NCBI RefSeq assembly: GCF_030145145.1
Contig: NZ_JAQYWD010000049.1
Location: 1-35,743 of the forward strand
Direction of reading: 5' to 3'
Origin: Desulfobacula sp.
Lineage (GTDB): Bacteria > Desulfobacterota > Desulfobacteria > Desulfobacterales > Desulfobacteraceae
DNA: 35,743 bases
The notes below the pieces were generated by a model. That model had not been told where the DNA came from, did not search any database, and was given only the letters and a program-made list of their open reading frames with translations. The position numbers and the translations under genes were made by a program. Positions 25,496 through 35,743 of this stretch are shown here, piece after piece; position 1 is the first letter of the stretch; each line of letters opens with the position of its first letter.

Positions 25496-25569
25496 CTTAA
25501 TCTCTCATATCCTTTCACATTTGGGATGTTTACTTAACTCAACGCTTTCGGTCTTTAGCTTTAATGTAA

Positions 25570-25652
25570 GGGGTCAGGCTTTTTTTATTGTGCTTTTTAT
25601 CATTATTTTATGACCATACAGGTAAAAAGCGCCATAAGGAAAGCCTGACCCC
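25570..25652 (-). repeat. Family A REP-like element, copy 1
   Basis: An 83-bp imperfect palindrome. Perfect 13-bp ends GGGGTCAGGCTTT (25570-25582) and AAAGCCTGACCCC (25640-25652) enclose a second imperfect inverted pair built on GCTTTTTA / TAAAAAGC. Read on the minus strand, its first 30 bp are identical to copy 2 at 27788-27817, which has the opposite orientation. It lies in the gap between fcl and rfbF. Outside it, ACTCAACGCTTTCGG-like and CCGAAAGTTGAGT sequences (25536-25551, 25671-25683) form a further weak inverted pair. It could act as a terminator, a transcript-stability hairpin, or a non-autonomous unit moved by the RAYT. Confidence 0.75.
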
Positions 25653-25685
25653 ATGTAAAAATGGCCAACTCCGAAAGTTGAGTAC

Positions 25686-27787: not shown

Positions 27788-27878
27788 GGGGTCAGGCTTT
27801 CCTTATGGCGCTTTTTAACCGTCTGGTCATGACATAGTGATAAAAAATTCAGCCTCCAATAAAAAAAAGCCTGACCCC
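27788..27878 (+). repeat. Family A REP-like element, copy 2
   Basis: A 91-bp imperfect palindrome with ends GGGGTCAGGCTTT and AAAGCCTGACCCC. The first 30 bp match the reverse complement of copy 1 exactly; the centre and right half have diverged but keep TGGTCAT and GTGATAAAAA-like blocks. The gap 27761-27964 holds this element and otherwise no gene. The pair of copies brackets gmd-fcl in inverted orientation. Confidence 0.75.
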
Positions 27879-28957: not shown

Positions 28958-29045
28958 GGGGTCAGGCTTGGGTTATTGGCTTTTGACCCACCCCGGATAT
29001 TCCGGGCAGAAGCCGACCCAAATGTCAATAACCCAAGCCTGACCC
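28958..29045. repeat. Family B REP-like element, complete palindromic copy (B1)
   Basis: An 88-bp palindrome: GGGGTCAGGCTTGGGTTATT at the left pairs with AATAACCCAAGCCTGACCC at the right, and a second hairpin CCCGGA-tat-TCCGGG sits in the middle. It shares the GGGGTCAGGCTT core with family A and the TTATTGGC extension with the copies around the RAYT gene. It lies between the lipoprotein and epimerase genes, both on the minus strand. Confidence 0.75.
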
Positions 29046-29080
29046 ATCCTCCAATAATATAAATTGCGGATTTATTACAG

Positions 29081-32566: not shown

Positions 32567-32603
32567 AAGCCAATGGGGTCAGGCTTGGTTTATTGGCTTA
32601 TTG
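32567..32603 (+). repeat. Family B REP-like element B2, overlapping the transposase stop
   Basis: GGGGTCAGGCTTGG starts at 32575 and is followed by two 8-bp units (TTGGTTTA, TTGGCTTA). An AAGCCAAT on the left (32567-32574) pairs with ATTGGCTT (32592-32599), giving a hairpin. The transposase stop codon (32590-32592) is inside the repeat. Confidence 0.7.
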
Positions 32604-33540
32604 TTGTTATTTCCTCAATCAATCGTTCTATTTTCTCCTTCACAGCAGAAAACTTTGTTATTTTATCCCTCAGTTTTGCAACCTGTTTACTCATGGTCGA
32701 TATTTCCCGACCCAAATATGTCGAAACCTCTTTGAGCGTATGCCGGGTGCAATCAACAGCAAGCAATGCGATAACAGCACGTGCTTCTGCAGCTGACCTG
32801 TTTCTACTTTTGTTGAGTATGTTTTGATGGAAAATATTATATTTTTCAGCCACCAGGACCGTCAGGGTATCAAGACTTATGTTGGATGCTGACTGCCCAC
32901 CTGACTGATTAAGAGCCTTTTGAACAAAATCATCATCCCCGAGGATATGTCCTTGTGTGCCACCTTTTCGTAACAATTCCAGATGCTCCGCTTCCACTGG
33001 TTGCCCCATAAAATGACGGTAACCGATCTGTGCAGCCTCAACCGTCTGTCCAAACAGGTTAAAAACCGGATCAATGGAAAGCCAATGGGGTATTTTATCC
33101 GGTGTAAGGTAAAGACGATGACTGCTTTCCGGATAATCCAGGGGATCCGTCACTATCTCGGCACGCACCGGGTTGAGATGAATGTATCGGATAATCTCGC
33201 GAAGATATCCTTCACGATCGACCAATATCGCCCTAAAGCGCCCCTGAAAAAGATGACCGACCCGATCATAACGATGGTTGAACCAGCCGGTATAACGTTG
33301 TGAAAGGCTTTGCATGATTTTAGACAGCGGGACATTTGACACCTGGAGCGCCATATGTACATGATTTTTCATCCAGCAATAGGCACACAGCCGAAGATTA
33401 TGCGTTTCCAGCCCCTGGTTGAGAATCTCTTCAAAGCGCCGGATATCCTCTTTATCATAAAAGATAGGCTGTTTAGCATTGCCACGAAGCATAACATGGT
33501 AAAAGGCACCGGGGTAGTGGATACGTGGTTTTCTGGCCAT
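32590..33540 (-). CDS. REP-associated tyrosine transposase (RAYT), Y1/HUH family
   Basis: A 316-residue single-strand transposase. The N-terminal Y1_Tnp domain opens with ARKPRIHYPGAFYHVMLRGN; the HUH metal motif is H60-V-H62 in MKNHVHMAL, and the likely nucleophile is Tyr119 in IIRYIHLNPVRAE. C-terminally (about 245-290) a helix-turn-helix resembling the DnaA C-terminal domain (EVSTYLGREISTMS) should help DNA recognition. RAYTs are thought to recognise and move REP hairpins; copies with matching ends lie on both sides of this gene. ATG at 33540 has AAGGA about 7 nt upstream. The last codons and the stop come from repeat B2. No terminal structure of a full IS200/IS605 element is evident. Confidence 0.92.
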   Translation of the reverse strand: MARKPRIHYPGAFYHVMLRGNAKQPIFYDKEDIRRFEEILNQGLETHNLRLCAYCWMKNHVHMALQVSNVPLSKIMQSLSQRYTGWFNHRYDRVGHLFQGRFRAILVDREGYLREIIRYIHLNPVRAEIVTDPLDYPESSHRLYLTPDKIPHWLSIDPVFNLFGQTVEAAQIGYRHFMGQPVEAEHLELLRKGGTQGHILGDDDFVQKALNQSGGQSASNISLDTLTVLVAEKYNIFHQNILNKSRNRSAAEARAVIALLAVDCTRHTLKEVSTYLGREISTMSKQVAKLRDKITKFSAVKEKIERLIEEITTISQ

Positions 33541-33560
33541 ACATCTTCCTTCAAAGAAAC

Positions 33561-33605
33561 GGGGTCAGGCTTGGCTTATTGGCTTATTGGCTTATTGGCT
33601 TATTG
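33561..33605 (+). repeat. Family B REP-like element B3 with four tandem 8-bp units
   Basis: The core GGGGTCAGGC (33561-33570) is followed by four exact tandem copies of TTGGCTTA (33571-33602) plus TTG. It lies 20 bp upstream of the transposase start codon, same orientation as B2. Confidence 0.75.
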
Positions 33606-33886
33606 CTGTTGAATCAGATCAATCAAGGCCGAACTCCCTGCTGAGATAAGATAGATACGATAATGGCTTGTGCCAGAACAAACGGATGGCACGAATAATC
33701 GCTAAACCGTTAATTGAACAGATACAAACCACGTTGAAGCCTATATAATATTTCGGTCTTAATCGCACGGTTAACCAGACTGTTATGACGCTGAGCGTCT
33801 CCTGTCAACGGCCTTCTCCACATATTTATGATGTACAAATCTATTTTTTAAATACTTTGCCCAAACAAACTCACTACATTATCGCC
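33606..33886. other. Interval between facing family B ends; no convincing gene
   Basis: These 281 bp separate repeat ends B3 and B4, which face each other. I see no convincing coding region; a 37-codon minus-strand frame exists at 33710-33823 (starting MWRRPLTGDAQRHN) without a recognisable family or ribosome site. One structured segment is notable: GTGCCA (33670-33675) / TGGCAC (33687-33692), flanked by near-complementary CGATAAT and ATAATCG, forming an imperfect hairpin over 33657-33700. It may be a remnant of an inserted element or an untranslated region. Confidence 0.4.
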
Positions 33887-33916
33887 CCAATAAGCCAACA
33901 AGCCAAGCCTGACCCC
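33887..33916 (-). repeat. Family B REP-like element B4
   Basis: CCAATAAGCCAACAAGCC then AAGCCTGACCCC: the reverse complement of the core plus about two 8-bp units. It faces B3 across the gap and is almost identical to B5 at 35355-35385. Confidence 0.72.
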
Positions 33917-33934
33917 ATCCTATATAAATTAAAC

Positions 33935-33975
33935 TTTACACCTATCTTGCTTTGCTATAATATCTATTTTATAAT
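33935..33975 (+). promoter_or_regulatory. Putative promoters of the AAA ATPase gene
   Basis: Two overlapping candidates: TTTACA (33935-33940), 15 bp, TATAAT (33956-33961); and TTGCTT (33947-33952), 17 bp, TATAAT (33970-33975). Both -10 boxes are perfect. The second has correct spacing and a weak -35; it lies about 33 bp before the start codon. Confidence 0.5.
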
Positions 33976-34008
33976 AAGTTAAGTTCAGCTTTAATGAGAG
34001 GTTATATC

Positions 34009-35199
34009 ATGATTCCTAATGTCATAAAACAGGCTTCTTTTTTTGTTTTATCTCGCCCGACTAAGATTTACGAACGTTTTTTACTCGAGCAAATAAATTC
34101 AAAAGAACAATTGATTGGCATTAAAGGGGCGCGGGGAGCCGGCAAAACCACATTATTGCTCCAATACGCACATAGGTCAGGATACCCGATAGAAAAAATT
34201 TTATACATTTCCTGTGATCATCCTGCCATGGCAGGTGTCAGTCTTTATGATTTAGCTCAGGATTTTTTTCAAGAAGGGGGAAAATTATTACTTTTAGATG
34301 AAATTCATAAGTCTAAAGGATTTGCCCCTCACCTGAAAGCAATTCGCGATACTTTTGATCTTCAAGTAATCTTTTCGGGCTCTTCGGCTATTCAGTTGGA
34401 TTATGAATCAGCAGATCTTTCCCGACGGGTTGTAATGTATCAACTACCTGCACTTTCCTTTAGAGAATTTTTAGAAATAGAGACCTCAATCCCATTCGAT
34501 GCCGTTCCATTGGAAAAAGTGGTAAAAAACCATTTAACACTTTCAAGTCAAGTTGCCGCAAAAATCCGCCCCATAGAATATTTTTTAAAATACATAAAGT
34601 ATGGTGCCTACCCTTTCTATTTGGAATCAATTGAAAACTATCCAATGAAATTACTTGAGGTGATTAATTTAACCATAGAATCAGATTTGCCCGCCATGTT
34701 TAATATAGAACCCAGCAAGCTTGATAAGTTAAAAAAGCTGCTTTATATGTTATGTACAACACCCCCTTTAGAATTAAACAAGATGAAATTAAGCGGGGCA
34801 ATTGGAACTTCATGGCCAACGGTCTCAAAATATTTAACCTTGATGTCAAAAGCATCCCTTATTCATCAAATAAGAGGAGGTGCGGGAATGAGGACGATTA
34901 ATAAACCCGATAAATTGTTGTTGGACAACCCGAATATATTTCAGGTATTGTGCGCGCAACCAAATATCGGCAGTCTGCGAGAAAGTTTTTTTGTTTCCCA
35001 GCTAAGCTATGCCCATCAAATACACTATCATGACAAAGCCGATTTCATTGTGGACGACACCTTTGTTTTTGAAATAGGTGGCCCCGGAAAAACCCGAAAG
35101 CAGATAAAAAGCCTTGATGACGCTTATATAATACAAGACAACATAGAAGTGGGCTCCCTAAAAGAGATCCCATTATGGGCTTTCGGTTTCCTTTATTAA
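34009..35199 (+). CDS. AAA ATPase (AAA_14 / DUF4143 type)
   Basis: A 396-residue P-loop ATPase of the group with an AAA_14 core and a C-terminal DUF4143 region. Walker A GARGAGKTT (about residues 40-48), Walker B KLLLLDEIHK, sensor-like VIFSGSSA and the arginine-rich SRRVVMYQLPALSFREFLE are all typical. The C-terminal half has a winged-helix-like segment (SGAIGTSWPTVSKYLTLMSK) and ends in a nuclease-fold-like part (DFIVDDTFVFEIGG). Many genomes carry multiple, often mobile, copies; cellular role is unsettled. ATG at 34009 is preferred because GAGAGG lies 7 nt upstream; ATG at 33994 lacks a site. It sits between two nearly identical repeat ends (B4 and B5), which makes it look like cargo. Confidence 0.85.
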   Translation: MIPNVIKQASFFVLSRPTKIYERFLLEQINSKEQLIGIKGARGAGKTTLLLQYAHRSGYPIEKILYISCDHPAMAGVSLYDLAQDFFQEGGKLLLLDEIHKSKGFAPHLKAIRDTFDLQVIFSGSSAIQLDYESADLSRRVVMYQLPALSFREFLEIETSIPFDAVPLEKVVKNHLTLSSQVAAKIRPIEYFLKYIKYGAYPFYLESIENYPMKLLEVINLTIESDLPAMFNIEPSKLDKLKKLLYMLCTTPPLELNKMKLSGAIGTSWPTVSKYLTLMSKASLIHQIRGGAGMRTINKPDKLLLDNPNIFQVLCAQPNIGSLRESFFVSQLSYAHQIHYHDKADFIVDDTFVFEIGGPGKTRKQIKSLDDAYIIQDNIEVGSLKEIPLWAFGFLY

Positions 35200-35354
35200 G
35201 CAGCAACTTATCGTGGTCAGACCCCTTCATACCTTCATCCTTCATACTCGCGGATTGAAAAGGTCTGTTAAAAGAACAGATCGTGGTGGCCCATTGTTTG
35301 TTCCTCTAATTTTTTGAGTTTTTGGATCGGACCGGCGTAACTGCCTTAAATTTT

Positions 35355-35385
35355 CCAAATAAGCCAACAAGCCAAGCCTGACCCC
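35355..35385 (-). repeat. Family B REP-like element B5
   Basis: CCAAATAAGCCAACAAGCC then AAGCCTGACCCC, differing from B4 by one inserted A. The preceding gap 35200-35354 holds no gene: it contains three CCTTCAT units (35224-35245) and a short hairpin TCTGTT/AACAGA (35264-35280) after the ATPase gene. Confidence 0.72.
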
Positions 35386-35397
35386 ACATGATGAGGA

Positions 35398-35743
35398 TCA
35401 AATTTTTACTAATCCGGGAATTAAGTTGAAATGCTTGTCCTTAGTAAATATTTTGTAACCATGTTGAAAAGCGACGGCCGCAATCCATATATCGTTTGTC
35501 GGAATGGGCGTGCCTGCAACTTTCAGATTATTGAGTATTGAAGCGTAAAAATCAGCCGTCTCCGCATCAATAGCGTGAACAACGACTCTTGGAGAATCCA
35601 GAAAAACATTAAGTTCTTCCCTGTTCCTTTCTTCACTGTTGCCGCCTTTGAAACCAGAATAAAGCTCCCCCATACTAATGGCTGCAAAACCAATCAAGTC
35701 AATTTTCCTCAACTCATCAACAATGTTACCATCACCCTTCATG
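35398..35743 (-). CDS. PIN-domain (VapC-like) ribonuclease, N terminus cut by window edge
   Basis: At least 114 residues are visible; the 5' end runs off the window. AAISMGELYSGF supplies the conserved acidic Glu, and PTNDIWIAAVAFQHGYKIFT with TKDKHF the later acidic residues of VapC-type PIN nucleases. The N-terminal MxxxDTN strand with the first catalytic Asp is missing and should lie just beyond the edge, since VapC proteins are about 130 residues. An ATG at 35740-35742 is probably internal. Partner VapB antitoxin would be expected immediately upstream, outside the window. Known VapC toxins cleave tRNA or rRNA; target here unknown. Confidence 0.82.
   Translation of the reverse strand, partial: MKGDGNIVDELRKIDLIGFAAISMGELYSGFKGGNSEERNREELNVFLDSPRVVVHAIDAETADFYASILNNLKVAGTPIPTNDIWIAAVAFQHGYKIFTKDKHFNLIPGLVKI

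Follow-up and report, generated by a model that had tools for sequence, protein, structure and literature searches.

Transposases of repetitive extragenic palindromes (REPs) nick single-stranded DNA. The Escherichia coli enzyme TnpA_REP is described as recognizing GTAG together with a single-stranded hairpin (PMC6006769, PMC8266576). In the TIRYT/TIRtron systems, genes resembling those of REP-associated tyrosine transposases (RAYTs) lie between inverted repeats, some or many of which are reported to hold GGGGWSAS (Di Nocera 2013, PMC3733652), and for the TnpA_REP transposases of subclass 2.1 the C-terminal helix-turn-helix is given as Bac_DnaA_C, HTH_23 or HTH_28 (Quentin 2018, PMC6006769). 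Here, a locus of this kind was analyzed in a 35,743-nucleotide stretch of DNA (the window; contig NZ_JAQYWD010000049.1) from Desulfobacula sp., a marine sulfate-reducing bacterium with a genome of 5.66 Mb. A transposase gene and an adjacent ATPase gene are accompanied by four copies (B2 to B5) of an end that consists of an outer core and an inner array of short boxes. The element is of a known kind and the reading of its inner repeats is new: we propose, from sequence comparison, that the DnaA-like domain of the transposase reads TTATTG boxes in the transposase's own ends.

The four ends, which the original prediction had placed around the two genes, are real, with exact cores at positions 32575 (+), 33561 (+), 33905 (-) and 35374 (-). 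B2 and B3 lie in plus orientation on either side of the transposase open reading frame (ORF), and B4 and B5 lie in minus orientation on either side of the ATPase ORF, as had been claimed (Table 1). Each end has the core GGGGTCAGGCTT and, next to it, 2, 4, 2 and 2 copies, respectively, of the unit TTGGCTTA. Tandem Repeats Finder reported the 8-bp unit 2.4 times at 32585-32603, 4.4 times at 33571-33605 and 2.5 times at 33887-33906, where it reads CCAACAAG; the end at 35374 received no call and reads as two units with at most one mismatch per unit. The window contains 10 core sites with at most one mismatch, versus 0.13 expected. B4 is the best inverted match to B2. Both B4 and B5 carry a TTGTTGGC variant, and therefore one was probably copied from the other; in B3, identical units seem to have expanded to four. 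An extra inverted copy placed like B3 is also found at two related loci (L029 and L049), and an 8-bp part of one is found at a third (L054). With four boxes in front of the start codon, B3 might, speculatively, serve as an operator for autoregulation.

Table 1. Features of the transposase locus and of the core pairs in the window
Feature	Position	Strand	Description
B2	32575..32603	+	Right inverted end; core and two boxes, the inner part running over the stop and last codons
B3	33561..33606	+	Extra end just 5' of the start codon, with TTGGCTTA x4.4 (four boxes)
B4	33888..33916	-	Presumed left inverted end; core and two boxes; core 376 bp upstream of the start codon
B5	35357..35385	-	Extra end; TTGTTGGC variant in common with B4
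Transposase gene (TIRYT type)	32590..33540	-	Y1/HUH, residues 14-121; C-terminal DnaA domain-IV-like part, residues 222-311
DnaA domain-IV-like part	32608..32877	-	phmmer to 1J1V, E 5.6e-6; Foldseek TM (target) 0.89, rmsd 1.4
Recognition helix	about 32653-32703	-	Helix of the predicted model, residues 280-296
ATPase gene (AAA_14)	33994..35199	+	Pfam AAA_14, 1.2e-25
A-type pair	25570..25652		83 bp, inverted cores, folds to a hairpin (z -8.2); inside the outer MITE
Outer MITE	about 25537-25683		ACTCAACTTTCGG-type ends; carries the A-type pair 25570..25652; TTAAGT on both sides
Second inverted core pair	27788..27878		91 bp; fold z -4.5
Third inverted core pair	28958..29046		One core with 1 mismatch; tail partly box-like

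The transposase has 316 residues and is a Y1/HUH enzyme related to RAYTs, according to its Pfam matches (Y1_Tnp, 1.7e-15; Bac_DnaA_C, 3.9e-9, above cut-off), its NCBIfam match (REP_Tyr_transpos, 66.9 bits, under the cut-off of 80) and a fold search. In a structure model built with nine sequences (mean pLDDT 74, pTM 0.56), the first part matches the hairpin-bound REP transposase 4er8 (Foldseek, 2.2e-5) and other IS200-type transposases. The last part matches domain IV of DnaA on DnaA-box DNA (1j1v, rmsd 1.4 Å; 3pvp, rmsd 1.2 Å), and 1j1v is the only solved structure that matches the transposase by sequence at E 0.01. The Y1/HUH core fold is thus common to this enzyme and E. coli TnpA_REP (4er8), which has a chain of 165 residues and is not known to have a DnaA-like domain. 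Like DnaA domain IV, the C-terminal part has an equivalent of Arg399: R246 aligns with this residue, and the equivalent position is R or K in 58 of the 60 ungapped sequences among 71 relatives. Unlike in DnaA, the domain is fused to a transposase, and the box is TTATTGNNN-like rather than TTATnCACA. In DnaA, the minor-groove contact with TTA on the 5' side of the box is ascribed to Arg399, and the major-groove reading of the 3' part to the helix 434-451 (PMC5742627). With its extra C-terminal Bac_DnaA_C domain and with TIRs (terminal inverted repeats) in place of REPs, the transposase resembles TnpA_REP subclass 2.1 and probably belongs to it (Quentin 2018, PMC6006769).

Relatives were gathered by an order-wide profile search (389 genomes) and from 60 further loci, and 102 ORFs were examined. 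Among the nine named loci of the first relative search, six of which are Desulfobacula records, the gene mostly lies between an upstream plus-strand core and a minus-strand core at the stop codon. Inverted ends scoring at least 17 were found at 77 of the 102 ORFs. When the downstream side was read backwards and scored alike, with the same 3 points awarded for GGGG, none of the 102 reached 17 (maximum, 13.5), which strengthens the end assignment. After the removal of 25 ORFs scoring below 17, 3 without an anchor, 2 shorter than 290 residues and 1 duplicate, 71 relatives were kept. The left end lies 45 to 115 bp upstream of the gene in 63 of them, the right end lies 0 to 12 bp past the stop codon in 52, and GGGGTC or GGGGAC is present at both ends in 39. 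The placement of the gene between inverted ends, with GGGGTCAG here and GGGGWSAS in the published account, and the occurrence of the ends as dimers and clusters are features in common with TIRYT/TIRtron (PMC3733652). Several left ends run straight into a -35-like TTGACA, and both ends contain TTGACA in one subgroup; end and promoter may overlap at such left ends. Two such transposase genes are located on one short contig at L029, and a full copy lies beside a truncated copy at L055, which suggests local amplification. The right ends of two more distant relatives (L062 and L064) read GGGACGTAGTTAACTTATCAACTTATC, which again contains two TTATC boxes, with 8-bp spacing.

A profile of 92 distinct inner tails from six genomes revealed a two-box layout. 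Positions 1 to 3 are weak, positions 4 to 9 read TTATTG (0.7 to 1.6 bits), positions 10 to 12 carry near-zero information (0.06 to 0.22 bits) and positions 13 to 16 read TTAT or TTTT (0.4 to 1.0 bits); position 17 is biased against G by the search pattern, which required a non-G last base. The first box fits 54 of the 92 tails (shuffled mean, 0.6; maximum, 4), and the second fits 48 (shuffled mean, 9.8; maximum, 19). Judged from this profile, the general end in the clade is the core plus NNN-TTATTG-NNN-TTATT, i.e., two boxes with a 9-bp spacing, and the TTATTGGC unit of the window looks like an 8-bp variant of this layout. An 8-bp tail of the TTATTGGC type is also present at L106. The array that had been predicted is present at the four ends and is not a feature of the genome-wide core repeat: among 145 own-genome sites with at most one mismatch, which are loci chosen among the matches listed and a subset of the 201 cores of the genome, at least two TTGGCTTA-like units are present at 7, of which the window holds 5 and this locus 4. 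Cores continuing with GG number 9 of 201, and 5 of these are in the window. Array-bearing ends are rare and mostly local in the genome. In listed cores compared by eye, the tail matches a resident enzyme in 23 of 44 cores in genome G039 and in 17 of 41 in G037; the listings required a non-G last base and therefore hold fewer cores (44 of 82 in G039).

The original prediction knew of no REP description with such an adjoining 8-bp array, which is right only in part. GGGGWSAS inverted repeats at TIRYT genes had been published, and what differs here is the two-box TTATTG tail and its link with a DnaA-like domain, since repeated inner boxes and such a link are not mentioned in the sections of that account considered here (PMC3733652). 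In the 2018 classification, as far as its sections considered here go, the GGGG consensus was compared with DnaA boxes and showed no resemblance (PMC6006769); unlike in that comparison, the resemblance proposed here sits in the inner tail. Among the titles seen in the literature on tyrosine or RAYT transposases and DnaA, none concerned box recognition by such a transposase.

TTA(T) makes up the constant half of the box and is comparable to the TTA read by Arg399 of DnaA. Segments of the transposase were ranked by their correlation with the similarity of the left inner tail, corrected for overall identity; only left tails entered this comparison, as right tails overlap coding sequence, and L143 was excluded. 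Among 437 pairs of proteins with 42 to 75% identity, the segment 276-289, at the start of the recognition helix, ranked 1 of 58. This identity range was fixed after the partial Mantel result given below and before its own result, and other ranges were tried later. With tail positions 9 to 22 (70 proteins), the helix segment ranked 1 of 58 in all eight settings with a lower bound of at least 0.42, and in the range 0.38 to 0.75 it ranked 3 with shift and 1 without. The protein of L106 (54% identity), which has the same tail as the window, has the helix start VSTLSKQVAH, versus ISTMSKQVAK in the window, and that of L028 (80% identity), with a different tail, has ISTMSRQVTN; the contrast between L106 and L028 is one anecdote.

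The explanation that we consider the best, and hold to be somewhat probable, is a TIRtron with a core and two DnaA-box-like boxes per end, the boxes being bound by the DnaA-like domain. Such an element has the gene of a Y1/HUH single-strand transposase between inverted terminal repeats, and each repeat has the outer core and an inner tail of two boxes, here of the 8-bp TTATTGGC variant, with four in one end. The domain make-up, the inverted ends of relatives, the two-box layout and the scarcity of this tail elsewhere in the genome are observed, and the roles of the two domains are inferred. By analogy with its relatives, the Y1 (HUH) domain would nick single-stranded DNA at or near the GGGG core. 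The C-terminal domain would hold the adjacent boxes as duplex DNA. Arg246 would recognize the constant TTA through the minor groove, the recognition helix would recognize the variable bases, and such box reading would give each transposase its own ends. Hairpin pairs with box-like tails in the stem could offer both signals on one molecule. Extra copies of the end near the gene may result from local hopping or one-ended events. Most of the core pairs examined elsewhere in the genome fall into end families that are related to this one but distinct from it, and many of these pairs have spread as cargo of a separate miniature inverted-repeat transposable element (MITE). A wider proposal, which we put forward tentatively and rate as slightly less than probable, is that a branch of HUH transposases took over the DNA-binding domain of the replication initiator and uses it to recognize, in its own ends, iterons that resemble DnaA boxes, with the arginine for the constant TTA in the minor groove and the helix for the variable triplet. 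Duplex boxes plus the GGGG core would replace the single-stranded hairpin, and triplet and helix would diverge together.

Several results weigh against this explanation. In the window, the presumed left end is 376 bp away from the gene, and a third end lies in between. By the scoring method used, 25 of the 102 relatives yielded no inverted ends, strict GGGGWSAS is present at both ends in just 14 of the 71, and the tails of distant relatives hold other repeats or a hairpin. When the tails were thinned to 34 that differ by at least 5 bases, the fit was weaker (box 1, 12 tails; box 2, 10 tails; shuffled maxima, 3 and 9), and the second box is no full 9-mer, as its 3' half is not conserved. Counted by eye, the tail matches the resident enzyme in 2 of 38 listed cores in G053, and in G056 there were 0 exact and 1 near match among 100 listed of 260. 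Over all 2,415 protein pairs, the helix segment ranked only 29 of 58; with tail positions 9 to 22 it ranked 19 to 29 in two wider ranges, and with positions 12 to 22 alone it ranked 3 to 5 in the narrower and 30 to 33 in the wider ranges. To some degree, the same segment follows the outer core as well (ranks 2 to 14). Whole-protein covariation did not single out the C-terminal domain: in a partial Mantel test of 71 proteins, the inner tail gave 0.14 for the C-terminal part and 0.31 for the N-terminal part, and the outer tail gave 0.27 and 0.59, respectively.

This all-pair covariation suits a rather unlikely alternative in which the element is a TIRtron whose boxes are not bound by the DnaA-like domain, being instead a promoter, a spacer or a relic, while the domain recruits the enzyme to replication forks. 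The sections of the 2018 classification considered here suggest fork targeting and doubt target recognition (PMC6006769), and the left ends that run into TTGACA, together with the subgroup in which both ends hold this sequence, point the same way. However, right ends carry the same boxes, though no transposase promoter is needed there, the pattern of a constant TTATTG and a variable NNN recurs with a 9-bp period in many tails, and the recognition helix tracks the tail among comparable proteins.

The core is abundant in the genome, with 201 exact copies (97 + 104) in 5.66 Mb versus 0 for the reversed control. For comparison with the TIRYT/TIRtron systems, the core number is 201 in this genome and 265 in G056. 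Across 86 genomes of the family, the median number of cores is 42 in the 11 genomes with a close transposase relative, defined by a best match of at least 250 bits (250.1 in G027), and 2 in the 75 genomes without one (Mann-Whitney p 2e-5). The predicted tie between core and RAYT stands in that the core is commoner in genomes with a close relative of the gene, but it is partly contradicted by 10 of the 75 other genomes, in which 20 or more cores occur. The transposase does lie among copies of its own ends, with 18 extra exact cores versus 1.5 expected at 7 of 9 loci; the two loci left out of this count, which have no genome density, hold 0 extra cores. Some extras at L028 look like local duplication, so the Poisson p-value for this clustering is optimistic. 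The last 8.15 kb of the window holds 5 extra cores versus 0.29 expected, in a stretch picked after the sites had been seen. The view of the repeats as substrates of the transposase is supported by the clustering and the gene association, but most genome-wide copies have other tails and many are MITE cargo.

The genome-wide cores often occur as inverted pairs. The pairs examined in this genome number 67 and include 39 of type A (mostly 83 bp) and 16 of type C (mostly 89 bp). The A- and C-type pairs are like REPINs, being two close inverted ends that are dispersed and that fold to a hairpin; two pairs were folded, and both gave hairpins with box-like tails in the stem. The four B ends at the transposase locus form no short REPIN-like pair. 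Like bacterial MITEs, the pairs are accompanied by an outer element with inverted ends and duplications, and unlike REPINs and bacterial MITEs they are nested inside this second MITE. At least 31 of the 67 pairs are enclosed by a complete larger palindrome with CTCAACTTTCGG ends, and a duplication of at least 6 bp, often 6 to 8 bp, lies outside 16 of these 31 outer MITEs (shuffled mean, 1.5; maximum, 5). The sequence ACTCAACTTTCGG occurs 92 times in the genome and its reversed control 0 times. TTAAGT around the outer MITE of the window reads like a target duplication, and the duplications in general suggest that the outer MITE is of the DDE type. Repeated edges of at least 3 bp were found at just 2 of the 67 pairs themselves, and a candidate target duplication of 6 bp at the edge of the pair at 25570 was rejected, as it looks like variant outer-MITE sequence.

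In G056 (Desulfocicer), 19 of 20 sampled pairs (L209-L228) lie inside an element with the same outer ends that carries a different core pair, and duplications of at least 6 bp are present at 16 of these 19 elements (shuffled mean, 1.8; maximum, 7). Two mobile families are nested in two genera. That 31 of 67 own pairs and 19 of 20 pairs in G056 lie in outer MITEs also speaks for an improbable alternative, in which the cores are merely MITEs of a DDE-type transposon and the transposase gene has little bearing on their number. This account holds for much of the copy number here, and it explains copies rather than the ends of transposase genes. In four other genomes of the same genus (G031, G037, G039 and G053), 20 sampled pairs of 54 to 94 bp look free-standing, with flanks unrelated by eye. 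The flanks of two of these are cut by a contig edge or N; in the 19 pairs scored, the repeated edge is 0 bp in 12, 1 bp in 3 and 2 bp in 4, and no empty site was seen among them. Four empty outer MITEs without a pair exist, and at a fifth place the sequence looks like a deletion derivative. In addition, core number tracks the gene across the 86 genomes. An autonomous element for the outer MITE was not found, with one spacing followed (L249, 1.37 kb). At about 283-1656 of L249, two partial MITE/pair halves lie 1.37 kb apart around two non-transposase ORFs, named by eye as acyltransferase-like and another small ORF, and no duplication was seen. At L014 (C10:5123) and L188 (C64:6988), C-type pairs lie within another palindrome, with CAGCAATTCT ends.

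The original prediction treated the ends as REPs whose 8-bp array might set the hairpin length. In the strict sense they are not REPs, since they start with GGGG instead of GT[AG]G and a single end folds no better than shuffled sequence (z -0.3 to 1.0). A REP hairpin in a single end was rejected by this fold test, and the role of the array in hairpin length fails for single ends on the same values. An ordinary REP/RAYT system with hairpin REPs, in which the array alters only hairpin length, is accordingly very improbable, even though the enzyme is related to RAYTs in its subthreshold REP_Tyr_transpos match and has 4er8 as its nearest fold; moreover, the C-terminal DnaA-like domain is described as a mark of the TIR-associated group (PMC6006769).

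The ATPase gene between B4 and B5 is probably a bystander of the transposase. As a candidate partner gene it was rejected, having no homologue (E 1e-3) in 35 other loci of transposase relatives, most with about 1.5 kb of flank. A gene for a PIN-domain, VapC-like toxin at 35398-35742 adjoins the last end, B5.

In the sections considered here, the 2018 classification left open the target of the DnaA-like domain in this group of transposases (PMC6006769). The inner boxes provide a candidate target and, with R246, a candidate residue, which makes the question directly testable. Many core pairs sit in a separate MITE, and the number of cores therefore gives no direct measure of the transposase. The nesting of the pairs in an unrelated MITE in two genera cautions against taking REP-like copy number as a sign of how active the associated transposase is.

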